A stretch of 26,895 nucleotides of DNA, taken from Candidatus Sumerlaeota bacterium. Its GTDB lineage: Bacteria; Sumerlaeota; Sumerlaeia; JADFCT01. Below, piece after piece: positions 5,309 to 19,649 of this stretch (positions are counted from its first letter, which is position 1; each line of letters starts with the position of its first letter). Both the position numbers and the translations under genes were made by a program. The stretch lies in the NCBI GenBank assembly GCA_026398575.1, contig JAPLSP010000302.1, forward strand, positions 1 to 26,895. The letters run 5' to 3'. The notes under the pieces were generated by a model that saw only the letters and a program-made list of their open reading frames with translations, did no database searches and was not told where the DNA came from.

Positions 5309-5941
5309 ATGGCTGAAGAAAAAGCCTACATCGTCACCGACGAGCAACTCGTTCCGGCGCTACAGAAAGGAGACGAGGACGCTTTTGCCGAGCTGATGCG
5401 ACGCTATCAAAGCCGCGTCTTCGGAATGGTCTGCCGTTACCTGGGCGATTATGACGAGGCGAGCGATGTGGCCCAGGAGGTGTTTGTCAGCGTGTTCCGG
5501 CATATCAAAGACTTTTCGGGGCGGTCGCGGCTTTCAACGTGGATTTATCGGATCGCCGCCAACATGGCGGTCAATGCGTTGCGCAGCCGGAATCGGCGAG
5601 TGGTTTCGATGGCCGAATCGTTGGATGAATTGAATGATCAAGAGGACCGGCCCCGGATCGAACCGGTGGCGGGAATAAAATCGGATCCGCGCGAACAACT
5701 GCATCAAAAGGAGTTGGACGCCGCGCTTCAAGTAAAACTTCAAGAGTTGCCGGAGAGCTACCGCATGACGTTTATCCTGCGAGAAATGCGGCAGATGTCT
5801 TACGACGAAATCGCGGAAGTAACCGATGTGCCCGTCGGGACCGTGCGTTCGCGGTTGCACCAGGCCCGCCAGCGATTGCGCGAAATGCTGGCGCCTTATC
5901 TCGGGATGGATTCCAGCAGGATAAAGGTGATTGAACGATGA
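5309..5941 (+). CDS. ECF (RpoE-like) RNA polymerase sigma factor
   Basis: 210-residue ECF sigma factor. Region 2 (about residues 12-92) includes AFAELMRRYQSRVFGMVCRY, the DVAQEVFVSVFRHI core-binding segment and STWIYRIAANMAVNALR for -10 recognition. Region 4 (about 150-205) includes LPESYRMTFILREMRQMSY and the helix-turn-helix DEIAEVTDVPVGTVRSRLHQ. Region 3 is absent, as expected for ECF factors. Its stop TGA overlaps the ATG of the anti-sigma gene (ATGA), so the two are co-expressed and likely co-regulated. The start has no obvious Shine-Dalgarno; a GAAC-N16-CGTC promoter just upstream would make the transcript nearly leaderless. The regulon is unknown, but the VIT-vWA genes directly downstream are candidates. 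Confidence 0.95.
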   Translation: MAEEKAYIVTDEQLVPALQKGDEDAFAELMRRYQSRVFGMVCRYLGDYDEASDVAQEVFVSVFRHIKDFSGRSRLSTWIYRIAANMAVNALRSRNRRVVSMAESLDELNDQEDRPRIEPVAGIKSDPREQLHQKELDAALQVKLQELPESYRMTFILREMRQMSYDEIAEVTDVPVGTVRSRLHQARQRLREMLAPYLGMDSSRIKVIER

Positions 5942-7569
5942 AATGCGAACATGCCAAAGAATTGATTTCGCCGTTGCTTGACGGCGAACTGGACCGCCTG
6001 AAGGCCGCCGAGGTTCAGGCGCACGTCAGCCGCTGTCCGGAATGCGCGGAAGAGATGGAAGGGCTGCGGCGCCTTTCGACGCTGTATCGCGCGCTCCCGG
6101 AACCGCAAGTTCCCGCGGATCTGGAGCAGCGCGTCTGGGCGGCAATCGGCAAGCGCGGCGCGAACACGGCCAGGCAACCCGCCCAACGGCCGGCATGGCG
6201 TTGGCCGTGGCTGACGGGTCCGCGGCTGGCCTTCGCCGGCGGAGTGATGGTGTTCTTGTGCGTGATGGTTCTCGTCTATAAAATCCCGGAATCCAACAAG
6301 CCGACAGCCAACGTGAATCGAGCGCTGAATGCAATGGACAGATCCGCCGGTCACGACGCTGAAAAGCGCGATGACCTTCTGCATGAAAGCCGGAAAAACG
6401 CAAGCGACTTCAGTAACGCGCCTGCGCCGGCGAAATCTGAGACCGTCAAAGAGGAAATCGCCAAGCTTAAAAAGGACGAGGCGCAACCTGGAGAGATCGC
6501 GGCGCCCGTTCCCATCGGTTCGCCGTCCGATCTTCGCGACGCCAGTCCCAAGCCCCAAGAGGCCACACTCTTGCGCGTGGCGCCCGAGAAGAACGACAAT
6601 GGAGCAGTCCTTCCCGTAAAAGATGGAACAGAAGATCGGGCGTCGCGAATGGAAACAAAGCCGTCGCCATTCGCCGATGCAAGCCAGAGCAAAGAAAGCA
6701 GAGCGCTAAAAAGCATGGCAAATGCCGCGCCAGGCGCGCCCGGAGCCCCCTTGGCAAAACCATCCGCAGCCAACGACACCGCTGAAGCTGAGAAGCCCGG
6801 TGCGCCGATGGGCGCTGCAACGGCCGCTCAACCGCCTTCTCAATTGGCCGCCGCCGCCCCATCCAAAATAGAGCCCTTGTCAAGGACCGCCAGGTTATCC
6901 CCGGCCGCTCCGGGAATTCAGATCTCCGAAGAGACGAATAAAGCTGCCTTAAGGCGAAACGCTGAAACCAGCCGTACCAAAGACGCCCCCGTCAATGGCG
7001 CCGCCGTGTTGGACGAAAGGGCAATCGCAAAGGCGGCGCGAGGAACGGCGGGCGGAATCAACCTAAGCGAGGCCGGCTTTAAGGAATCTTTAAGCCTGGG
7101 CATAATCGCAGGCGATGGCGCGCGACGCTCCCAAATGATGACATTCAAGTATAACAACGAGTTGCCGCTTGGAGAGGCTTTTTCGCTCCCGAACGGCGCC
7201 ACAATAAAGATCGAATCCATTTCCTTCAATCAAATGGCAAATGGCAGGATGGAGATGCAGCTCAGGGCTGTGGCGCAAATCGCCAAGCCGGCGGACGCGG
7301 ACACGGACCCGGGAAAACAGCGGGTCCTCTCTTCTACTTTGGGTCGCGTTCAAGTGGAACGATTCACATCCGCCACGGCGCAACTCATTCTCTACGTGGA
7401 TGGCGAGGCAAACGGCGCCACGGAAATCAACGCGGGACCGATCCGGTTTTCCCTGCCTTCCGAAACAACGCCGGACGCGGAGATCGTCAACATCGCCGTC
7501 ATCCCGCTCAACGCTTCCCGGCTGACGGGCGTCCGGAATTTTTCAGTGAGTTTGATCCCCCGGCCTTAG
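5938..7569 (+). CDS. Anti-sigma factor with zinc-binding ZAS domain and long extracytoplasmic region
   Basis: 543-residue single-pass membrane protein. The N-terminus has C3 and the HxxxCxxC motif (H29, C33, C36) of zinc-binding anti-sigma domains, which hold the partner ECF sigma factor inactive at the membrane. One TM segment (LAFAGGVMVFLCVMVLVY) follows at about residues 96-116. The region beyond, about 120-400, is Ala/Pro/Lys/Glu-rich and probably disordered; it is followed by a beta-type domain of roughly 140 residues that I do not recognise. Family members are usually much shorter, so the long outer part may sense or bind something at the cell surface. The gene overlaps the sigma gene by 4 nt (ATGA). 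Anti-sigma activity is inferred from motif and context. Confidence 0.88.
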   Translation: MKCEHAKELISPLLDGELDRLKAAEVQAHVSRCPECAEEMEGLRRLSTLYRALPEPQVPADLEQRVWAAIGKRGANTARQPAQRPAWRWPWLTGPRLAFAGGVMVFLCVMVLVYKIPESNKPTANVNRALNAMDRSAGHDAEKRDDLLHESRKNASDFSNAPAPAKSETVKEEIAKLKKDEAQPGEIAAPVPIGSPSDLRDASPKPQEATLLRVAPEKNDNGAVLPVKDGTEDRASRMETKPSPFADASQSKESRALKSMANAAPGAPGAPLAKPSAANDTAEAEKPGAPMGAATAAQPPSQLAAAAPSKIEPLSRTARLSPAAPGIQISEETNKAALRRNAETSRTKDAPVNGAAVLDERAIAKAARGTAGGINLSEAGFKESLSLGIIAGDGARRSQMMTFKYNNELPLGEAFSLPNGATIKIESISFNQMANGRMEMQLRAVAQIAKPADADTDPGKQRVLSSTLGRVQVERFTSATAQLILYVDGEANGATEINAGPIRFSLPSETTPDAEIVNIAVIPLNASRLTGVRNFSVSLIPRP

Positions 7570-7721: not shown

Positions 7722-7775
7722 ATGCTTTGTCAAAAAGCCATGTCATAAACATTGCCAATTGGGAGGTTGGCTCCT

Positions 7776-10220
7776 ATGAACACACACAGCCAGTTCAGGG
7801 AAACATTCCCGCAATACGCATTCAGCGCCATTGGATTGCTCGCCTTCGTTGTCGCTTTGGCGGCATTCGCCCCCGCGCAGGGCATTCTGCAACTGCATGA
7901 ACCCGGAGCAAACGTTGGCGCCGGGCCCCAACCAGCCATCGAGATACTTCCGGCGCCTGTTCCGATTCCCGACGGTCGCCGCCTTCCGCCCCATCCCGTT
8001 CCCTGGCGTCCCTGGCCGGGGCCGGTTCCTGTCTTGCCGGCGGACTTGACCAGTCTTGAAGTCAATGTCCAGATTGACGGCATGACCGCGACCACCGCGC
8101 TGGATCAAACCTTCCGCAATCCATTCCAACGCCGGCTGGAGGGAACGTATCTCTTCCCGCTGCCGGCCAACGCCGTGATCCGCGACATGAGCCTCTATAT
8201 TGACGGCAAGCCGGTCAAGTGCGAGGTCGTCGAGGCCGACAAAGCGCGCGCGATTTACGAGGAGATCGTCCGCCGCGCGCGCGACCCGGCGCTGCTTGAA
8301 TACGTCGGGCGCGATCTGGTGAAGTTGCGCATCTTCCCCGTCGAGCCTGGCCAGACGCGGCGCGTCAAGTTCCAATACAGCCAGATTCTCAAGCGCGACT
8401 TCGGCCTCACGGAATATTCCTATCCCCTGCTGACGCAACAGCAGGCCGCGCAGCCGATCTGGAGTTTCACGCTGACCGGTTCCATTCATTCCGACAAGCC
8501 CATCACCGCCGTCAACTCGCCGACGCATGACATCGAATTCAAGCGCAAGGACGACAAGAACTTCACCTTCGGCTTCGAGAAAGAAAACTTTCAGCCTGCC
8601 GCCAATCTAAAAATGTATTATGGGATTTCCGACAAGGAATTCGGCGCGGGCCTCGTTGCTTATCGGATTAAAAGCGAAGACGGCTACTTCATGCTGATGA
8701 TCGCGCCGCGCGGGAAAGACGAGAAGGCCAAACGCATCCCGAAGGATGTGACCTTCGTCTTCGACACCTCCGGCTCGATGGCGGGCGACAACATCGAACA
8801 GGCCCGGCGGGCGCTTCAGTATTGCCTCAACTCGTTGCACGAAGAGGACCGATTCAACATCATCCGGTTCAGCACCGAAAGCGAACCGTTCGCCAAAGGG
8901 CTGGTTCCCGCGTCGAAGGACAAGATCAAAGAAGCGCTCGGATTCGTTAAGAGCATCGAGGCGCGCGGCGGCACCGCGATCAACGACGCCTTGATGGAAG
9001 CGCTCAGCGCCAAAGGCTCGAAGGAACGCCCGCACCTGATCGTCTTCCTGACCGACGGCAAACCGACAGTTGGCGAGGTCAACACCAACGCCATTCTGAA
9101 GAATATCGCCGCGAAGAACGAGAACAAGCCGCGGATATTCGTTTTCGGCGTCGGCAATTCGGTCAACACGCTCCTGCTCGACAAGATCAGCGACGAGCAT
9201 GGCGGCGTCACGGATTATATCGGGCCCAAGGAAGACATAGAAGTTAAAGTTTCAAATTTCTTCACGAAGGTCTCCGATCCGATCCTCATGAATCTGGCGC
9301 TCGATTTCGGCTCGATCAAATCCTCGAAGGCGTATCCCAAAGCGCTGCCGGACCTTTTCGCCGGCGGGCAAATCACCTTGATTGGCCGCTATCAAGGCGC
9401 CGGCAAAGCGGACTTGGTTCTCTCCGGCTTGCAAGGCGGCGATAAGAAGGTGTTCGAATATGCCGTGGACTTTCCCGAGGAGGCCACGGACGCCGACTTC
9501 CTGCCGCGCCTGTGGGCTATCCGCCGCGTCGGAAATCTGGTGGATGAGATTCGCAAGAACGGCGAAGAAAAAGAATTGAAGGATGAGGTTATCGCGCTGG
9601 GGAAGAAATACGCGATTGCCACGCCCTATACTTCGATGCTGGTGCTCGAAGATGGCGCCATGCCACCAGGCGCCGCGCAATGGGGAATGCGTGACGGACG
9701 CCGCGCGGAAGCAGGCCGCGGCGGCGGCGCGGCGCCAGGGGCGCCAGCCAATACGGGACCGATTCCTGCGGATTGGGAACCACTGCCAATCACTATCCCC
9801 AGGCCGTTGTTTATCGGCACGCCCAAAAACATCCGCGGCAATTTCGCGTCGCCTGCCGAAGAAAAAGCCGCCGCTTCCGCCGCGAGCGAAGCGCTCAAAG
9901 CCGACAGCGGCGCAACGGGAGTCGCCATCGCCCGTGCGACAAAGCAGATGAAGGATACCGATCGCGTCACGGTATCAGGGACGGAAGGCTCCCCCGAAGT
10001 GCGCCAGATCGCCGGCCGCACTTTCTATTTGATCAACGCCTGCTGGACCGACAGCGAGTACGACGGCAAAGCCGCGACGATCAATGTCGTCTATGACACG
10101 GATGAATACAAAGCATTGCTGAAAAAAGGCGGCGACATAACAAAGTTCCTGGCATTGGGATTCAATGTCATCTTCAAGTATGATGGGAAGTGGTATAAGA
10201 TCACAGAGCCGAAGCAATAA
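7776..10220 (+). CDS. Secreted VIT and vWA domain protein, paralog 1
   Basis: 814-residue exported protein. The start is ATG 7776, with GGGAGG 9 nt upstream (7761-7766). A hydrophobic signal segment (about residues 16-34) ends near APAQG. A VIT domain (about 88-200, with LDQTFRNPFQRRLEGTYLFP and ADKARAIYEEIVRRARDP) is followed by a vWA domain (about 320-500) with an intact MIDAS: DTSGS, the Thr of ARGGTAINDA, and LTDGKPT. This is the inter-alpha-trypsin-inhibitor heavy-chain-like arrangement. A Gly/Ala/Pro linker leads to a C-terminal domain of about 70 residues (from AGRTFYLINACW to GKWYKI) shared with paralog 2. These proteins probably bind ligands in a metal-dependent way in the periplasm or at the surface; the partner is unknown. 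It follows the ECF sigma/anti-sigma operon. Confidence 0.93.
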   Translation: MNTHSQFRETFPQYAFSAIGLLAFVVALAAFAPAQGILQLHEPGANVGAGPQPAIEILPAPVPIPDGRRLPPHPVPWRPWPGPVPVLPADLTSLEVNVQIDGMTATTALDQTFRNPFQRRLEGTYLFPLPANAVIRDMSLYIDGKPVKCEVVEADKARAIYEEIVRRARDPALLEYVGRDLVKLRIFPVEPGQTRRVKFQYSQILKRDFGLTEYSYPLLTQQQAAQPIWSFTLTGSIHSDKPITAVNSPTHDIEFKRKDDKNFTFGFEKENFQPAANLKMYYGISDKEFGAGLVAYRIKSEDGYFMLMIAPRGKDEKAKRIPKDVTFVFDTSGSMAGDNIEQARRALQYCLNSLHEEDRFNIIRFSTESEPFAKGLVPASKDKIKEALGFVKSIEARGGTAINDALMEALSAKGSKERPHLIVFLTDGKPTVGEVNTNAILKNIAAKNENKPRIFVFGVGNSVNTLLLDKISDEHGGVTDYIGPKEDIEVKVSNFFTKVSDPILMNLALDFGSIKSSKAYPKALPDLFAGGQITLIGRYQGAGKADLVLSGLQGGDKKVFEYAVDFPEEATDADFLPRLWAIRRVGNLVDEIRKNGEEKELKDEVIALGKKYAIATPYTSMLVLEDGAMPPGAAQWGMRDGRRAEAGRGGGAAPGAPANTGPIPADWEPLPITIPRPLFIGTPKNIRGNFASPAEEKAAASAASEALKADSGATGVAIARATKQMKDTDRVTVSGTEGSPEVRQIAGRTFYLINACWTDSEYDGKAATINVVYDTDEYKALLKKGGDITKFLALGFNVIFKYDGKWYKITEPKQ

Positions 10221-11353: not shown

Positions 11354-13882
11354 ATGAAACGCAATGATTTGATCAAAAATATTCGGATTATCTTCGCAAC
11401 AATAGCAATGCTTGTATTGCTGTTGCCCAATAGCTTATTTGCCCAAGGCATCCTGCAACTGCACGAGCCGGGAGAGAAGATTTCGGCGGACGCGGCCAGG
11501 ATCACTATTGAAATCGCGCCCGTTCCGATTCCTCTACCTCCCGATCATCGCCGCATCCTGCCTCCGCCTCCACCGCGTCCGTGGCCGGCGCCGGTTCCTT
11601 ATCAAGCGGCCGATCTGACCAGCCTCGAAGTGGACGTGCAGATTGATGGGATGACCGCCACAACGGCGATTGATCAGACTTTTCGCAATCCTTTCAGCCG
11701 GCGCCTGGAAGGAACGTATCTTTTCCCGCTGCCGACGAACGCCGTCCTGCGCGACTTGAGCCTTTATATTGACGGCAAGCCGGTCAAGTGCGAGGTCGTC
11801 GAGGCGGACAAGGCGCGGGCAATTTATGAAGACATCGTGCGGCGGGCGCGCGATCCGGCGCTGTTGGAATACGTCGGACGCGACCTCGTGCGGCTGCGCA
11901 TCTTCCCCATCGAGGCCGGACAGACGCGCCGCGTAAAATTCCAGTACAGCCAGGTCCTGAAGCGCGACTTCGGCCTGACGGAATACGCCTATCCGCTGCT
12001 GACGCGCGATCAGGCGATGCAGCACATCGGCAGTTTCGCGATCAAGGGAACCATCCATTCGGACAAGCCGATCACCACGATCAACTCCCCCACCCACGAC
12101 ATCGAATTCAAACGCAAGGACGATAAGACCGCCACCTTCGGCTTCGAGAAGGAAAATTTCCAGGCAGCGGCGAACTTGAAAATCTTCTTCGGCGTTTCGG
12201 AAAAAGAAATGGGCGCCAGCGTCGTCGTTTATCGCGTCAAGGGCGAGGACGGCTACTACATGCTGATGATCGCGCCGCGCGCCGCGAGCGACAAGGAAAA
12301 GCGCAAGGCGATCCCCAAAGACGTGACCTTCGTGTTCGACACGTCCGGTTCGATGGCGGGCGACAATATCGAGCAGGCCCGCCGCGCGCTGGCATTCTGC
12401 CTCAACTCGCTGCGCGAGCAAGACCGGTTCAATATCATCCGATTCAGCACGGAAACGGAGCCATTCGCCAAGGAACTCGTTCCCGCCACCAAGGGCAAGA
12501 TCAAAGAGGCGCAGGAGTTCGTCAAAGGAATCGAGGCGCGCGGCGGCACGGCGATCAACGACGCCCTCATGCAGGCGCTCGATTCCAAAGGCTCGAAAGA
12601 GCGCCCGCATCTGATCGTTTTCATGACGGATGGCAAGCCAACCGTCGGCGAATGCGGCACGGACGCGATTTTGAAAAACATCGTATCGAAAAACGAGAAC
12701 AAGGCGCGCGTTTTCGTTTTCGGCGTCGGCAATACGGTCAACACGCAACTGCTCGACAAGATGAGCGACGAAAACGGCGGCGTCACGGATTATATCGGCC
12801 CCAAAGAAGACATCGAGGTCAAGGTCTCCAATTTCTTCAGCAAGGTTTCCGATCCCATCCTGACGGGACTGGAGCTGGACTATGGCGCGATCAAGCCGTC
12901 GAAATCCTATCCCAAGTCGCTGCCCGATCTCTTCGCCGGCGGGCAGGTCACGATCCTGGGGCGCTATCAGGGAGCGGGCAAGGCCGACATCGTCTTGAAG
13001 GGATCGCAGGCGGGCGAGAAGAAGGTATTCGAGTATGCGCTAGAGTTCCCGGAAGAAGCCTCGAACGCCGATTTCCTGCCGCGTCTCTGGGCGATCCGGC
13101 GCGTCGGGCATCTGGTGGACGAGATCCGCAAGAACGGCGAATCGAAGGAGTTGAAGGATGAGGTCGTCGCGCTGGGGAAGAAATACGCCATCGCCACGCC
13201 TTATACTTCGATGCTTGTTTTGGAAGACGGCGCCGCGCCCGCGCTGGCGGCAGCGCGGCCGGGAGAGACAATCGTGACATATCATGGAACGAAGGCCACA
13301 GGAGCAGCGGAAGGTAAAGCGGCATTCTTTTATGATCCCATTGGCGGCCCGGTCTCGAACGGCGAAATTGCCAGAAGGACGCCTGGCGTTTCCGGCGGAT
13401 CAATGCCATCCGACAACAAGAGAGAAGCGCCTGCCGCTTCCCGTTCGCGCCTCTCTGTTGGCGACAAAGATCGTTCCACCGCCTATCTCAGTCCCTACTA
13501 TTCCGGAGATACCCGAACAAAAGATCCGAGCGACTTCGCGCCATTCCCCGCGGCCATGAAAGCCGAAAGCGGCGCGGACGCGGTGGCCATGGCGCGCATC
13601 ACGCGCGAGATGAAAGAAACCGAGAGCCTCTCGAAAAGCGGTAGTAAAGAGCAGGCCGATGCGCAGCAGGTGGCCGGGCGGACGTTCTATCTGAAGGACG
13701 GCGTCTGGACCGACAGCGAATACGACGGCAAGGCCGAGGCGGTGAAGATCGCCTCCATGTCGGATGAATATTTCGCGCTGCTGAAGAAAGGCGGCGACAT
13801 CGGCCGCTTCCTGTCGGTGGGGACGAAGGTAATCTTCCGGTTCGAAGGCAAGTGGTATCAGATCACGGACGCTGTAAAATAG
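11354..13882 (+). CDS. Secreted VIT and vWA domain protein, paralog 2
   Basis: 842-residue paralog of the gene at 7776, near-identical in order and motif content. TAAGGAG (11341-11347) lies 6 nt before the ATG. The signal peptide (IRIIFATIAMLVLLLPNSLFA) is followed by the same mature start, QGILQLHEPG. The VIT domain spans about residues 85-200. The vWA domain, about 320-500, has DTSGS, ARGGTAINDA and MTDGKPT, so its MIDAS is intact. The linker (about 640-770) is longer than in paralog 1 and of different sequence, rich in Ser, Pro and charged residues. The shared C-terminal domain (AGRTFYLKDGVWTDSEYDG to GKWYQI) closes the protein. The two genes arose by duplication, and most divergence is in the linker and signal peptide. 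Likely envelope function; no enzymatic role is suggested. Confidence 0.93.
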   Translation: MKRNDLIKNIRIIFATIAMLVLLLPNSLFAQGILQLHEPGEKISADAARITIEIAPVPIPLPPDHRRILPPPPPRPWPAPVPYQAADLTSLEVDVQIDGMTATTAIDQTFRNPFSRRLEGTYLFPLPTNAVLRDLSLYIDGKPVKCEVVEADKARAIYEDIVRRARDPALLEYVGRDLVRLRIFPIEAGQTRRVKFQYSQVLKRDFGLTEYAYPLLTRDQAMQHIGSFAIKGTIHSDKPITTINSPTHDIEFKRKDDKTATFGFEKENFQAAANLKIFFGVSEKEMGASVVVYRVKGEDGYYMLMIAPRAASDKEKRKAIPKDVTFVFDTSGSMAGDNIEQARRALAFCLNSLREQDRFNIIRFSTETEPFAKELVPATKGKIKEAQEFVKGIEARGGTAINDALMQALDSKGSKERPHLIVFMTDGKPTVGECGTDAILKNIVSKNENKARVFVFGVGNTVNTQLLDKMSDENGGVTDYIGPKEDIEVKVSNFFSKVSDPILTGLELDYGAIKPSKSYPKSLPDLFAGGQVTILGRYQGAGKADIVLKGSQAGEKKVFEYALEFPEEASNADFLPRLWAIRRVGHLVDEIRKNGESKELKDEVVALGKKYAIATPYTSMLVLEDGAAPALAAARPGETIVTYHGTKATGAAEGKAAFFYDPIGGPVSNGEIARRTPGVSGGSMPSDNKREAPAASRSRLSVGDKDRSTAYLSPYYSGDTRTKDPSDFAPFPAAMKAESGADAVAMARITREMKETESLSKSGSKEQADAQQVAGRTFYLKDGVWTDSEYDGKAEAVKIASMSDEYFALLKKGGDIGRFLSVGTKVIFRFEGKWYQITDAVK

Positions 13883-14013: not shown

Positions 14014-14763
14014 CTAGAAGTGCGATTCATCGTGCGCATGGAAGTGGATAAGCGAATCCCAACAGGCCGGCGAACAGCGGGACTTCAGCGCGGTGATGAT
14101 AATCTCTTCGCAGGCAAGAAGCGGCACGCGCGAGGTATCGAGGCATAGGTCATAATCGCGCACGTTATTGACGTCGGCATTAAAGACATTCCGGATGAAG
14201 CTGCGCCGTTGCTCGTCCACTTCATGGACTTTTTTCTTCGCTTCTTCCTCCGGCACATTATCGTATTCCATCACCCTGCGAATGCGAAACTCCACAGGCG
14301 CATAGAACCGCACGCGCAGACTGGCGTGTTCGCCAAGGACGCGGCAGGCGCCCCGCCCCAGGAAGATCGCCCGTCCATGCTCGGCAATGATCGTGATGGC
14401 GCGCGCCAGCCGGACGGAATATTCTTTTTTGTCTATCACGCGTCCCGTCAAAAGCCCCAGGATGCGATTCTCGATGCTTGATTGCATCGCCTCGTCCAGC
14501 GTGTCCACCACGCGCCGCTCGAGCATGGCGTCTTCGGCGATGGCGTCAATGATCGAGATGCCAAAAATATCCATGTGAAGATTTTCGCTCAGCGCTTTGG
14601 CAATGGTACGGCCACCGGCGCCGATCTCGCGCGATATGGTTATCACGGGACAGGCGACGCCTCCCTCCCCTTTGCCTTTCCCATGTTTCCTGCACAGCAC
14701 GGCATTGATGCGGTCCCACTGGTGAATCTGCCGCTCGACGAGCTTGCTTTTGACATCGGACAT
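14014..14763 (-). CDS. Cytidylate-kinase-like P-loop protein
   Basis: 249-residue protein of the cytidylate-kinase-like family (Cytidylate_kin_2 type), whose true substrate is generally not known. A glycine-rich P-loop (ISREIGAGGRTIAKAL) is at about residues 43-58, followed by a helical lid region and a FLGRGACRVL segment typical of the family. The start is taken as the ATG at 14763 because AGGTGG lies 10 nt upstream on the minus strand. A longer open frame reaches 14856, but its extra codons are read from a 10-bp tandem repeat and give a Cys/Ser/Val-rich sequence unlike a protein N-terminus. It lies 135 bp after pilB on the same strand and may share its transcript. Nucleoside monophosphate kinase activity is a family-based guess. 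Confidence 0.82.
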   Translation of the reverse strand: MSDVKSKLVERQIHQWDRINAVLCRKHGKGKGEGGVACPVITISREIGAGGRTIAKALSENLHMDIFGISIIDAIAEDAMLERRVVDTLDEAMQSSIENRILGLLTGRVIDKKEYSVRLARAITIIAEHGRAIFLGRGACRVLGEHASLRVRFYAPVEFRIRRVMEYDNVPEEEAKKKVHEVDEQRRSFIRNVFNADVNNVRDYDLCLDTSRVPLLACEEIIITALKSRCSPACWDSLIHFHAHDESHF

Positions 14764-14790
14764 CGCTGGATCACCACCTTTCATGCAAGC

Positions 14791-14860
14791 TGGCACGGAC
14801 TTGCACGGACTGACACAGACTTGCACGGACTGGCACGGACTCACACAGACCGACACGGAC
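14791..14860 (-). repeat. 10-bp tandem repeat, seven units
   Basis: Seven exact-length 10-bp units lie in register: TGGCACGGAC, TTGCACGGAC, TGACACAGAC, TTGCACGGAC, TGGCACGGAC, TCACACAGAC, CGACACGGAC (plus strand). A weaker 30-bp pattern appears because every third unit ends in CAGAC. It lies in the pilB to kinase-like gap, upstream of the kinase-like gene's Shine-Dalgarno. Confidence 0.9.
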
Positions 14861-14898
14861 TCAAATTGCTGCGGTTTTCTGTCTCCTGTCTTCTGCGT

Positions 14899-17307
14899 TT
14901 AATCCATCGCCGTAATGCGCATCACTTCTTCGATGGTTGACTGGCCCATCAGGATTTTTTCCCATCCGTCCATGCGCAGCGTCCGCATTCCGTAGCGGAT
15001 GGCGGCGGCTTTGATACGGCTGCCGGATTCGCGGCGAATCACCATCTGGCGCAATTCCGGATTCATGATAAAAATCTCGTGGATTGCAGTTCGTCCGCGG
15101 TAACCGGTATTTGAGCAGCGCCCGCACCCGCGCCCAATGGCATATTCGCGGTCAATAAAATCTTTGGGATCCACGCCGACGGAGGCAATCTCTTGCGCCT
15201 TATAAGTGTAAGGCGTCTTGCACGAGGAGCAAATCCGCCGGATGAGACGCTGGCCGATTGCCGCCTCCAGGGCCGAAGCGATGAGGAATGGCTTGATGCC
15301 CATGTCTATGAGGCGGATGGTGGAGCCGGGCGCATCGTTGGTATGCAGCGTGCTGAAGACAAGGTGGCCCGTCAAGGCGGCGCGGATGGCGGCGCCCGCC
15401 GTTTCCTCGTCGCGGATTTCGCCGACCAGGATGATGTCGGGCGACTGGCGCAAGACCGTGCGCAGTCCCATGGCGAAATCCAGCCCCAAGTCCTTGTTGA
15501 CCTGCATCTGATTGATGCCTTGCACCTGATACTCCACCGGGTCTTCGATCGTGATGATTTTCGTGTCGGGCGTATTCAGAACGTTCAAGGCCGCATACAG
15601 CGTCGTTGTTTTCCCGCTACCCGTCGGCCCCGTCATCAGGATGATCCCATTCGGCGATTTAATCAGGGTGTTGAACTTCTCGATATTATCCGGCAGAAAG
15701 CCGACGTCCACCAATCCCAGCATGACGCTGCTCTGATCGAGGATACGAAGAACCAGGGCTTCTCCATAGATGGAGGGGAGGCATGAAACGCGCAAATCCA
15801 GCGCCCGCGCTTGCACGGTCAGCTGAATGCGCCCGTCCTGGGGGACGCGCTTTTCGGCCAAATCCATGCCCGACATGACTTTGAGGCGCGAGATGATCAT
15901 GTTCTGCCACTTTTTGGGCGGCGAAGGCATCTCCTGAAGCACGCCGTCTATCCGGAACCGGATGGTCACGGAAAAGCGCGTCGGCTCGATATGAATATCC
16001 GAAGCGCGCTCATGAATCGCTTCGCGGAACAGCAAGTTGACAAACTTGACAACCGCCACCTCGTCATCCGGCGCATCCGCGTCCAAATCAATCACTTTGG
16101 TGTCGGCGCTGGCGTCGAAATCATCCGCGTCGCCTGAAGCCAAATCATCCTCACGGCGCTGCGTTTCCTCCTGAATGGTGGATTGGATGATTTTGGTCAT
16201 CCGGTCGCCTTCATAATAATTGCGAATGGCGAAGCCGATTTCATTTTCCGGCGCCAGTTTGGCGATGATTTGTTTTCCCAGACGCAAGCCCAGCTCATCC
16301 GTGATGCGCACGTCCAGCGGATCGGCCACGGCCACGGTCAGCGTCTCAGGCGTGGACTCGAGCGGAAAGATATGATAGGCTTTGGCAACTTTGATGTCTA
16401 TCTCCGCCAGCACTTCGGGCGGGATGTCCAGGTTGCGTTTCAGCGAGACGCATTCCATGCCGATGCTGTTCGCAATGGCCTGCAACATGTCGGCTTCGCT
16501 GACCAGTTCCGTCTCGGCCATCAAGCCGCCCGTCGCCGGATGCTCCCCTGCTTCCGCCTCATTGACGCGCATTTTGAGGGCTGCAAGCTTGCTCTTGTCC
16601 ACCAGACCCGCTGCTTCGATCTCGGAGATCAATTTGGTGATTTGTTTGCTTGGCCCGGAATAGGTGGCTTGTTCCCCCTCAGGAACTTGCGGTTGTTTGG
16701 CTGTCACCGGCTTGGGCGCAGCGGCCTTGAGCGCCGATTGCAGGGGCGCGGAAGATTGCGGCACAGCAGTTTTAGCGGTCGCCGGCATCGGCGCGGGCGA
16801 TGAAGCCGGCGCTTTGCGCACGGCGCCAATAGCGGCAGGCGCCGGCTTGGGCGCCGGCGCCATCGCGGGCGCAGCAGGGGCGACCGGTTTGGGCGCCGCT
16901 GCTTGAGGCGCGCTGGGTTGCCGCGCGGAAGGCTTGGGCGCCGCCACTGGCGGCGCGATGGGCTGTGGCGCGGAAGGCTTGGGCGCGGCGGACTTGGGCG
17001 CCATCGCCGGGGCTGAAGCGGGCTTGGGAGCCGTTGCAGGCGCCGGAGCGGACTTGGGCGCCGCGGCAGGTTTTGACGGCCCCGGAGAAACAGGCGCTTT
17101 GGCGATTGCAGGCGGCGCGGGTGGTTTGCCGGCCGCCGGCGCCGCCGCTGGCTTGGGCGGCGCGGTTTTCAATGCCGGACCAGGCGCGGACGCCATGCGC
17201 AAGGGATCCACCAAATCGCTGACATCGTCCGCGACGGAAGGCTCCTTGACAGCCTGGTTTCCCGCCGCTTTTTTTTCTTTATCCGTCTTTCTTCCAAAAA
17301 AGCCCAT
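14899..17307 (-). CDS. pilB: Type IV pilus assembly/type II secretion ATPase (PilB/GspE)
   Basis: 802-residue hexameric-type ATPase that powers pilus extension or pseudopilus assembly at the inner membrane. The first 200 residues are mostly Ala/Pro/Lys repeats, longer than is usual. An N-terminal T2SSE domain follows (SEADMLQAIANSIGMECVSL to about residue 365), then the ATPase core: Walker A GPTGSGKTT at about 558-566, Asp box GEIRDEE near 622, a His box, and the zinc site CSSC near 692 with CGRC near 730. All key motifs are intact. AAAGGA lies 8-9 nt before the ATG at 17307. No PilC, PilT or pilin gene is in the window, so pilus versus type II secretion cannot be decided; the four-Cys motif is found in both. 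Confidence 0.93.
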   Translation of the reverse strand: MGFFGRKTDKEKKAAGNQAVKEPSVADDVSDLVDPLRMASAPGPALKTAPPKPAAAPAAGKPPAPPAIAKAPVSPGPSKPAAAPKSAPAPATAPKPASAPAMAPKSAAPKPSAPQPIAPPVAAPKPSARQPSAPQAAAPKPVAPAAPAMAPAPKPAPAAIGAVRKAPASSPAPMPATAKTAVPQSSAPLQSALKAAAPKPVTAKQPQVPEGEQATYSGPSKQITKLISEIEAAGLVDKSKLAALKMRVNEAEAGEHPATGGLMAETELVSEADMLQAIANSIGMECVSLKRNLDIPPEVLAEIDIKVAKAYHIFPLESTPETLTVAVADPLDVRITDELGLRLGKQIIAKLAPENEIGFAIRNYYEGDRMTKIIQSTIQEETQRREDDLASGDADDFDASADTKVIDLDADAPDDEVAVVKFVNLLFREAIHERASDIHIEPTRFSVTIRFRIDGVLQEMPSPPKKWQNMIISRLKVMSGMDLAEKRVPQDGRIQLTVQARALDLRVSCLPSIYGEALVLRILDQSSVMLGLVDVGFLPDNIEKFNTLIKSPNGIILMTGPTGSGKTTTLYAALNVLNTPDTKIITIEDPVEYQVQGINQMQVNKDLGLDFAMGLRTVLRQSPDIILVGEIRDEETAGAAIRAALTGHLVFSTLHTNDAPGSTIRLIDMGIKPFLIASALEAAIGQRLIRRICSSCKTPYTYKAQEIASVGVDPKDFIDREYAIGRGCGRCSNTGYRGRTAIHEIFIMNPELRQMVIRRESGSRIKAAAIRYGMRTLRMDGWEKILMGQSTIEEVMRITAMD

Positions 17308-17381: not shown

Positions 17382-18737
17382 TCAATCCTCTTTTTTCCAT
17401 AGCGCCAAATCGCCCCGGGCCATGAAATCCGAGCGCACGTCGCGGCGGCGCTTTTGAGTTTTCTCGCGGTCCCGCTGTTTCTCGCGCTCCTTGCGCTCCT
17501 TTTTAATGCGGCTTGTGTCACGGAAGCCCGGCTGGGATTTTGCCGCTGCCGCTGGCCTTTCCTTCATTTTTTCCTTCCTGGGTTTCGCCGCAATTTTCGC
17601 CGCCGCAGGCGCCTTCGATGGAACGGCCGCCAAGAGGCGCGAATGCTCCTTCTGTTTTTCCAGGCGCCGGTTTTCTTCCTGCTCTTTGGCGCGAATCAAC
17701 GCGGCGCGCTCGCGCAATTCGCGGACGGATATCTCATATTCTATGGTGTATAGATCCTCCCATCGCGACGCGTCTTTTTGCTTGAGCGCCAGCGCTTCGC
17801 CGCGAACAGCCATGGTTTCAGCAGCCAGCAAGCCCCGGCGCCATTCCTCCGGAATCGCCTCGGCGCCGAATCGCGCGCCGAGCATCGCGCCGGTGATCGC
17901 GCCCGCTGCGCCGGCAGAATGGCCGCCATTGATCGCCGCCGTCAAGCCTTCCCGCGCCGAACGGGCCGACAACGCCCGATAGATCGCCGCCGGGACGCAG
18001 ACGGGCGCAAACGGCTGATTGAACGCGGAGATGGGATACGGCGGTTCAAATGCGACGGGCAAATGGCGTTCGCGCAAGAACGCTTCCAACCGCTCCTGGG
18101 CGCGGCGGACGGTGTCGCATATTTCTTGCGCGACGGCGGGGGCGTCCAGCTTGCGCGCTGTTGCCTGCCGCGCCAAAGCCGCCACGGCCGCAGCCACGGC
18201 AGCGGCGCCCAGCGCGGCGCGCGAATCGCAGTGCGTCATCAAGGCGCATTCCAGCGAGGCTTCAATGAGTCCAGCGGCGTCTTCGTCATGCCATAAGCCA
18301 ACGGGCGACATGCGCGCAGCGGCTTCCGGTCCGGGCGAGGGCGCCCCGCACGCCAGCGGATCGCCGCCTTCCCTCATGCGCAAGACGCTGTTGCGAAACT
18401 CCCGGGCGGTTCCGCGATGAACGCCGTATTCGAGTTCCGGCGCCGCATCGCTGAAAGCCAAGAGCCATTCCGCGAAGGTCCGGGCGTTCCAGCCCGAATG
18501 ATCGAGCAATGTTTCCTCGATCATGAGAGCATGCTGCGTATGGCAGGTATGCGCTCCCCGCAGGCGCCAGCGATGCGGCTTCTCGCGCCAGGCCAGCAAT
18601 GGGTCCACGAAATCCTCGACCACCCCGCCATAAATCTGCTGGATATGCCCCGGCTTCAGGCCGTCCATCGCAGCGCCCATCGCGTCGCCAATGGCCATCA
18701 TCAATATCGAACCGACTGCGCGATCAACAGGGATCAT
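17382..18737 (-). CDS. ADP-ribosylglycohydrolase-fold protein with replaced metal ligands and basic tail
   Basis: 451-residue protein matching the ADP-ribosylglycohydrolase (ARH/DraG) fold: AIGDAMGAAMDG near residues 15-26, RMSPVGLWH and ALMTHCDSRAALGAA in the middle, and GGHSAGAAGAITGAMLGARF at about 271-290. The family binds two Mg ions with the motifs TDDT and GDTDT. Here these read TCHT (residues 64-67) and GHSAG (272-276), so the metal Asp residues are Cys, His, His and Ala. Classical hydrolase activity is therefore doubtful. The last 105 residues or so are a Lys/Arg/Glu-rich, coiled-coil-like tail ending in GDLALWKKED, unusual for the family and suggestive of nucleic-acid or ribosome contact. 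AAAGG lies 8 nt before the ATG. It is upstream of pilB on the same strand (74-nt gap). Confidence 0.8.
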   Translation of the reverse strand: MIPVDRAVGSILMMAIGDAMGAAMDGLKPGHIQQIYGGVVEDFVDPLLAWREKPHRWRLRGAHTCHTQHALMIEETLLDHSGWNARTFAEWLLAFSDAAPELEYGVHRGTAREFRNSVLRMREGGDPLACGAPSPGPEAAARMSPVGLWHDEDAAGLIEASLECALMTHCDSRAALGAAAVAAAVAALARQATARKLDAPAVAQEICDTVRRAQERLEAFLRERHLPVAFEPPYPISAFNQPFAPVCVPAAIYRALSARSAREGLTAAINGGHSAGAAGAITGAMLGARFGAEAIPEEWRRGLLAAETMAVRGEALALKQKDASRWEDLYTIEYEISVRELRERAALIRAKEQEENRRLEKQKEHSRLLAAVPSKAPAAAKIAAKPRKEKMKERPAAAAKSQPGFRDTSRIKKERKEREKQRDREKTQKRRRDVRSDFMARGDLALWKKED

Positions 18738-18964
18738 TCATGCTGCCTTTGCGCTTTTCCGTTTGCCGATGACTTATGCGGCTGATTCTTTGCGGAATCA
18801 AGCGATTTGTCAACCTGAGAAGCGCCCGATCGTTTGGCGGACGGCGCATTTTTTATTCGCTTGAGCTGGGACGCGCCTCTTATCATCATCGGGTGGTTGC
18901 GGAAATGCACAGGGCTCCCGCGACAAACATAAAGTCTCCGTGTATGAAAGAATAGGCGCCGACC
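18738..18964. other. Intergenic region between divergent genes
   Basis: This 227-nt stretch separates the minus-strand ADP-ribosylglycohydrolase-like gene from the plus-strand MNT gene, so it must hold both promoters. I could not identify convincing -35/-10 pairs. A small inverted repeat (TGATTC and GAATCA, 6 bp) lies near 18783-18800. On the minus strand a short frame reading FMFVAGALCISATTR before two stops may be a gene remnant, but this is too weak to call. Confidence 0.4.
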
Positions 18965-19360
18965 ATGATTCCGATGAAGACCATTCGAGGCTTTGCCAAG
19001 AGGGTTGGGAAGGAATTCAACCCCCACAAGATTATTCTTTTCGGGTCCTATGCCTACGGAAAGCCCAACGAGGATTCCGACGTGGATTTGCTGATCATTC
19101 TCCCTTTCGAAGGAAGGCCGGTCGAGCAATCTGTAGCCATACAAATGAAATGCCGCCCTCATTTCCCGGTCGATATCATTGTTCGGACTCCTGAAAAAAT
19201 CCAGGAACGCTTGAGCATTGAGGATGGCTTTATCAAGGAAATCTTGGATAAAGGGAGAGTCCTTTATGAAACCACTGACGCGGGAATGGATCGCGAAAGC
19301 GGAAGAGGATTTCGCGATGTTGGGAAGAGAAATGCGCGCTCGAAAAGACCCAAGCTATAG
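18965..19360 (+). CDS. MNT-type minimal nucleotidyltransferase
   Basis: 131-residue protein of the minimal nucleotidyltransferase family, the antitoxin-type partner of HEPN proteins. The signature GSYAYG with D39 and D41 (GS-x10-DxD) is intact, and a third acid lies at D70 (PVDIIV), so it could transfer a nucleotide, as in MntA, which AMPylates its HEPN partner. The domain normally ends about where GRVLYE appears (residues 94-99); here the frame runs on for about 32 more residues across the start of the HEPN gene, giving a 95-nt overlap. That tail is Arg-rich and looks like a read-through frame. An alternative start is ATG 18974. Confidence 0.85.
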   Translation: MIPMKTIRGFAKRVGKEFNPHKIILFGSYAYGKPNEDSDVDLLIILPFEGRPVEQSVAIQMKCRPHFPVDIIVRTPEKIQERLSIEDGFIKEILDKGRVLYETTDAGMDRESGRGFRDVGKRNARSKRPKL

Positions 19361-19649
19361 CGGCGCTTGCTTCCATGCCCAGCAGTGCGCGGAAAAATAC
19401 CTAAAGGCTTACCTGACTGAATCCAGTATCCCATTCAGCAAAACCCATTACTTGGTCGCATTATTGGAATTGGCCCTTCCCACTGAACCATTATGGGAAT
19501 CTTACCGGGAGGATTTGGCGCAGTTATCCAGTTTCGCAGTGGATTTCAGATATCCAGGAGAATCAGCAGACAAGAGCACGGCCCGCGACGCCTACCGAAA
19601 GTGCAAATCAATTCGGCAAGCATTACGAGAATCGCTTAGCCTGGAATAA
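19266..19649 (+). CDS. HEPN-domain protein, partner of the MNT gene
   Basis: 127-residue all-helical HEPN-domain protein. It begins MKPLTREWIAKAEEDFAML and has the family hallmarks FHAQQCAEKYLKAYL and FRYPG. The start at 19266 is set by AGGGAG 8 nt upstream (19252-19257). No R-x4-6-H motif, the RNase signature of toxic HEPN proteins, is present, so it may not cleave RNA. With the upstream MNT gene it forms the common two-gene HEPN/MNT module, interpreted as a toxin-antitoxin or nucleotide-binding pair. Its start lies inside the MNT frame, so the two are co-translated. Confidence 0.87.
   Translation: MKPLTREWIAKAEEDFAMLGREMRARKDPSYSGACFHAQQCAEKYLKAYLTESSIPFSKTHYLVALLELALPTEPLWESYREDLAQLSSFAVDFRYPGESADKSTARDAYRKCKSIRQALRESLSLE

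Follow-up and report, generated by a model that had tools for sequence, protein, structure and literature searches.

The hydrolases of the ARH/DraG superfamily (MJ1187, DraG, ARH1 and ARH3; PF03747) combine an all-helical core with a binuclear metal site, whose four aspartates lie in two catalytic motifs, [ST]-D-D-T and G-D-[TA]-D-[TS]; in ARH3, Asp316 bridges both metals according to PMC7050489. The same fold also occurs in proteins of other standing. PMC10601310 and PMC7390403 describe the vertebrate cardiac ARH2/ADPRHL1 as a pseudoenzyme, and PMC7050489 as suspected to be inactive; as an ARH family member so described, this vertebrate heart protein may parallel the one reported here. Two further ARH-fold proteins are known from structures of large complexes: mt-SAF23 of the trypanosome mitoribosomal small-subunit assemblosome (6sga chain FP, with a relative in 9hny) and ARHL of the Orf2971/Ycf2-FtsHi motor complex (8xks, 8xqw), the latter from a green alga; by analogy, mt-SAF23 and ARHL offer a precedent for ARH-fold proteins serving as subunits. 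ARH pseudoenzymes are thus already known, and what is apparently undescribed is a bacterial lineage of them with a dedicated tail motif: in a search of mostly open literature, we found no such lineage, nothing that ties ADP-ribosylglycohydrolases to Nitrospinota, to mitoribosome assembly or to Ycf2-FtsHi, no work on ADP-ribosylation in Sumerlaeota and no mention of mt-SAF23.

The stretch of DNA analysed here (the window: 26,895 nt of contig JAPLSP010000302.1 from a Candidatus Sumerlaeota bacterium) harbors one gene of this superfamily, with the following features:

17382..18737, minus strand: whole gene, an uninterrupted ORF for a putative ARH-fold pseudoenzyme of 451 aa, plus stop
17772..18737, minus strand: ARH core, residues 1-322
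18537..18548, minus strand: TCHT (residues 64-67) where TDDT is expected, from column counts
18048..18086, minus strand: gap relative to the clade of its relatives, after residues 218 and 229, from the alignment
17907..17924, minus strand: GHSAGA (residues 272-277) where G-[GY]-D-[TA]-D-[TS] is expected, in gap-free register
17625..17753, minus strand: long charged helix C-terminal to the core, residues 329-371, from DSSP of the model and column counts
17397..17516, minus strand: C-terminal basic helix, residues 408-447, with the tail variant of the window subclade, from the model, alignments and counts

The ARH fold, which had initially been proposed from the letters alone, was borne out: the all-helical core matches PF03747 over residues 9-298 (Pfam scan, E 1.1e-39), and the AF2 model is confident (pLDDT 91.2) and close in fold to ADP-ribose-bound ARH3. 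Unlike the hydrolases named above, the window protein lacks all four metal aspartates and carries about 130 additional C-terminal residues, and against the DraG equivalog TIGR02662 it scores 64.8 bits, below the curated cutoff of 337.05. In the alignment it is shorter at the gap by 29 to 40 residues than the 24 other members of its clade (35 residues against both P0002 and P0003).

In the first motif, the change of TDDT to TCHT was confirmed by alignment, the two aspartates (D65 and D66) being present in 25 of 25 Isosphaeraceae relatives; the flanking T64 and T67 are still present. For the second motif, the initial annotation had set GHSAG against GDTDT, and while the loss of aspartate stands, this register does not: without gaps, the letters facing D-[TA]-D-[TS] are S274-A275-G276-A277, so that Ser274 and Gly276 occupy the places of the two aspartates and His273 aligns with the residue preceding the first of them, which is not a ligand position (Gly in 24/25 Isosphaeraceae relatives and 14/25 clade members, Tyr in P0002).

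TCHT and GHSAG are not conserved across homologs. Among the matches listed, the nearest relatives are P0002 (46% identity), P0003 (44%), P0004/L001 (34%) and P0005 (31%), of which P0002 retains TDDT and GYDTDT, while the others read TGPA/GYDTPR, AAAA/GSDTES and AGAC/GGDAES, and a further relative GYAT/GYASAT. Both observations that had been named beforehand as contrary to the proposal (a homolog with intact motifs, and assorted residues in other close relatives) were thus made. Wider protein searches (best 120 of 319 and best 120 of 196 matches listed) were dominated, among the matches listed, by PfkB-ARH fusions; the second yielded two extra family proteins, P0121 and P0122, which lie on contigs equal in length to those of L152 and L021 and are for that reason probably identical with these genes.

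At the genome level, the family profile matched 31 of 40 Sumerlaeota genomes (1e-10) and 43 of 45 Isosphaeraceae genomes (1e-20). The long form, judged by match length, was found in 22 of the 40 (in one of them as fragments); in a 23rd genome a short fragment sits where a contig ends, and only shorter ARHs occur in the remaining matching genomes. Within the long-form clade (n=25, mostly Sumerlaeota) all four metal aspartates are present in two members (P0002 and L097), two in one, one in four and none in 18, and 20 of the 21 examined genome copies of the Sumerlaeota long form are without the full site. The Isosphaeraceae relatives (e.g. L002, L003, L123-L140), which unlike the window protein are untailed, with a short C-terminus and no basic helix, keep all four in 25/25 examined, and the other ARHs (n=69) keep four in 61, three in one and two in seven. 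Position by position, D65 and D66 occur in 25/25 Isosphaeraceae sequences, in 63/69 and 67/69 other ARHs, and in 3/25 and 2/25 clade members. These counts omit duplicate loci, fragments in genomes G004 (L085, L024/L090) and G010 (L114), secondary hits (L091, L093-L096) and hits below 55 bits. When the core columns are ordered by conservation (column entropy), position 65 comes 290th and position 276 comes 255th among the 305 of the long-form clade; among the 281 of the other ARHs they come 26th and 25th. Seven Sumerlaeota genomes without a long-form match (L115-L121) hold another ARH group, untailed and altered in part of the site: a second-motif aspartate is replaced by Ala or Gly in 7/7 and Asp65 is gone in 5/7 (as in GIDT/GDAAT).

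In two trees computed without the catalytic columns (sampling 13 and 9 of the 25 Isosphaeraceae rows, and 26 and 22 of the 69 other ARHs), the 25 long-form sequences group together as a single clade, with good but not decisive support (93/89 and 90/90), within which the window protein, P0002, P0003 and L099 constitute a subclade (100/99). Since the intact P0002 and L097 are nested inside the clade, at least five losses are required within it if loss is irreversible (nine over the whole tree); with regain allowed, five changes are enough for the whole tree. Few columns of the clade's core are conserved as poorly as those of the metal site, while the fold and the tail persist, and the binuclear metal site has therefore been lost several times independently within the long-form lineage.

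The part that this lineage shares beyond the core is its C-terminal extension. In the charged helix, E333 is invariant (25/25 clade members) and residue 340 is E in 23 and D in two. Most long-form proteins then carry a proline-rich FAPPPxxWL, followed at the end by the basic motif DPxxKKxxKAxRGRKRIxWKExRR, in which R418 is kept in 25/25 clade members, W in 21/25 and K in 22/25. A profile of this motif, built from 12 sequences, matched 20 of the 40 Sumerlaeota genomes at E <= 2e-8, always at the end of a long-form ARH ORF (12 of these genomes supplied the profile, and eight did not). No convincing match was obtained elsewhere in the 40 genomes (six others, E 0.055 or worse), and in the 45 Isosphaeraceae genomes there were seven with a match at E 0.1, the best reaching only E 0.015; judging by these searches, the common tail motif looks private to the long-form ARH protein. 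The RGRKRIxWKExRR portion marks most of the clade and not all of it, being absent from the window protein, P0002, P0003 and L099, in which a basic K/R-rich helix is followed by [RK][AS][DE]F[MI]ARGxxA[LF] (RSDFMARGDLA in the window protein, after its K/R-rich stretch). Because these four sequences are without RGRKRIxWKE and have a variant tail instead, their tail could have a different role. The C-terminal helix is modelled with confidence in the window protein (block pLDDT 93-94 at 411-430), and in L097, which combines an intact site with the common motif, a helix is likewise predicted at the end of the tail (459-492, pLDDT 87-92 in blocks 461-490). Against solved structures, the motif profile gave no match better than chance (best E 1.2), and the tails of the scanned proteins gave nothing above Pfam cutoffs. 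With its conserved tail, and with no counterpart found in the literature covered, the long-form clade apparently does represent an undescribed subfamily, as had been suggested at the outset.

The neighbourhood of the gene is not conserved in Sumerlaeota. Across 25 compared loci (including those of L009 and L013 from other phyla, and six without an ARH ORF in the main cluster) no neighbour family recurred in more than three, by longest-first ORF calls that weak conservation could escape, and a Pfam scan of 20 neighbours assigned families to 15 of them, without any recurrence. In the window itself, a PilB/GspE-type ATPase, as the next gene, and a cytidylate-kinase-like gene (14014-17307, minus strand) lie 74 bases downstream of the ARH gene on the same strand, an order that was not seen at the other compared loci. 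On the other side, nucleotidyltransferase and HEPN genes overlap head to tail (18965-19649, plus strand), in the manner of an MNT-HEPN toxin-antitoxin pair, and a minus-strand ORF laid over them (18734-19162) is probably spurious. Farther away, we observed two similar long proteins (7752-10220 and 11354-13882, plus strand; VIT and VWA domains in the first by Pfam), between which lies a 368-aa ORF that matches no Pfam family, and a 543-aa protein with an anti-sigma-type zinc finger (zf-HC2) at its start (5938-7569, plus strand), directly preceded by a sigma-factor-like ORF. In Isosphaeraceae, a TPR protein is found near the intact, untailed ARH at 7 of 17 loci (e.g. L002, 11317-11835, plus strand), at several of them directly downstream.

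A comparable situation was encountered in a second phylum. A relative was detected (1e-20) in 57 of 77 Nitrospinota genomes, in one (G091) via a short stretch only. In a sample of 21 sequences (from the 20 best-scoring of the 57 genomes, plus L013), no metal aspartate is left in 12 and a single one in nine, and the altered site is itself conserved: position 273 is R or K in 21/21 and E274 is present in 19/21, with H169 in 0/21. These proteins end in a motif of their own, KEDxxxWRKFxKDKTRxKRDRRRN, and a profile of 11 such tails matched 56 of the 77 genomes at E 0.01, always at the gene of the ARH relative (by contig and coordinates); three of the matches are weak (E 2e-6 to 0.004), and two of the 56 contain an internal stop codon. 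Profile comparison gave no relation between the Sumerlaeota and Nitrospinota tail motifs, with profiles so short that the comparison has little power. The position of the Nitrospinota sequences differs between the trees (beside the Sumerlaeota clade, 94/80, in the first, with two Nitrospinota rows; Isosphaeraceae nearer to that clade, 85/82, in the second, with 12), and in either their loss of the site is separate from the losses inside the Sumerlaeota clade. In contrast to Sumerlaeota, the order of genes is conserved at the 20 Nitrospinota loci examined (L202-L221): the gene is preceded on the same strand by an MBL-fold hydrolase in 19 (adjoining it in 18 by ORF calls), which we take to resemble the YycJ/WalJ group, with an aldehyde dehydrogenase ahead of that in 15; a small protein that looks secreted and belongs to no known family follows in 17, and beyond it, on the opposite strand, come a TPR protein (16), a DksA-like protein (13), RsfS (14) and NadD (15).

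We consider it probable (at about 70%) that the window protein belongs to an ARH-fold pseudoenzyme lineage that keeps the core as a scaffold and docks by its basic C-terminal helix. By computed fold and ancestry, it descends from a metal-dependent ADP-ribosyl hydrolase, in a lineage whose charged C-terminal extension closes with a conserved basic helix and whose metal site has repeatedly been lost. Since the binuclear site was lost several times in this lineage, the retained function would be something other than metal-dependent hydrolysis, and would be exerted by binding, with the helix docking on a partner. Given its many Arg and Lys residues, a first, weak guess at that partner may be RNA or a ribonucleoprotein, for instance the ribosome; nucleic-acid or ribosome binding by the tail, as initially suggested, is plausible. 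The neighbouring genes, which vary among Sumerlaeota, give no indication of the partner of the window protein. P0002 and L097 look catalytically intact from their motifs, and enzymes may still exist among the members of the clade.

The main rival, which takes up the ADP-ribose binding considered in the initial annotation, is that the protein acts as a reader of ADP-ribose (or of a nucleotide), whose pocket binds without cutting and whose tail brings it to the site. The clade retains R108 and G272 in 25/25 members, H169 in 21/25 and P145 in 18/25, residues which we assume line the ARH pocket, and the retention of R108 and H169, like the closeness of the fold to ADP-ribose-bound ARH3, is compatible with ligand binding. 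However, the 21 Nitrospinota proteins examined all lack H169 and all place a basic residue at 273, and many of the conserved core residues may be structural; we therefore regard a reader as possible but distinctly less probable than a docking scaffold. Relaxed selection on a decaying former hydrolase appears improbable: the drift of the motif residues and the 29 to 40 residues that the window protein lacks at the gap would agree with it, but open frames of mostly 440-500 aa are maintained in two phyla, tail and core hold invariant residues, the model is confident, and loss of the metal site alone does not mean that the rest decays. The view that this is not simple decay, already advanced in the initial annotation, is thereby probably right. 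Equally improbable, in our judgement, is a hydrolase or transferase that still works without the binuclear metal, which the full site of P0002 and L097 and the kept T64 and T67 of the window protein would favour, since the substitutes share no chemistry across the clade and a common mechanism there is unlikely. The zinc or iron site with new chemistry that had been envisaged for Cys65, His66 and His273 is the least probable reading and is rejected, for although C65 and H66 are adjacent within the former metal motif and L107 also has His66, relatives do not conserve the positions (Cys65 in the window protein only among the 25 clade members and in 1/21 Nitrospinota; DD, GP or YA in the nearest relatives) and H273 lies off the ligand position. 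The one Nitrospinota sequence concerned, L194, has SCHM at the first motif, with the same Cys-His pair as TCHT; because the other 20 mostly read GVQT or GAPT, we take this likeness to be a coincidence.

Returning to the pseudoenzyme scaffold, a broader version may be put forward only tentatively: Sumerlaeota and Nitrospinota might each have converted an ADP-ribosyl hydrolase to a conserved factor that no longer catalyses, has a C-terminal docking helix of its own and now takes part in a core process, for instance the assembly of ribosomes or RNPs. The sole tie between the window protein and a ribosome assembly factor is a fold match, mt-SAF23 being weakly related in sequence (E 0.0036 with the single sequence, 2e-6 with the clade profile).

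For annotation, these observations imply that the label ADP-ribosylglycohydrolase, which a Pfam scan gives to the long-form and Nitrospinota proteins, rests on fold alone. Such proteins occur in at least 22 of the 40 genomes from Sumerlaeota and in 57 of the 77 from Nitrospinota, and nearly all of those examined are without the full site; a reading from the fold alone would therefore overstate ADP-ribosylation capacity. The dedicated tail motifs provide a handle for a partner search. Moreover, the family presents a natural series, from an intact site without a tail, through an intact site with a tail, to a tail without the site, along which the change from enzyme to pseudoenzyme can be studied.
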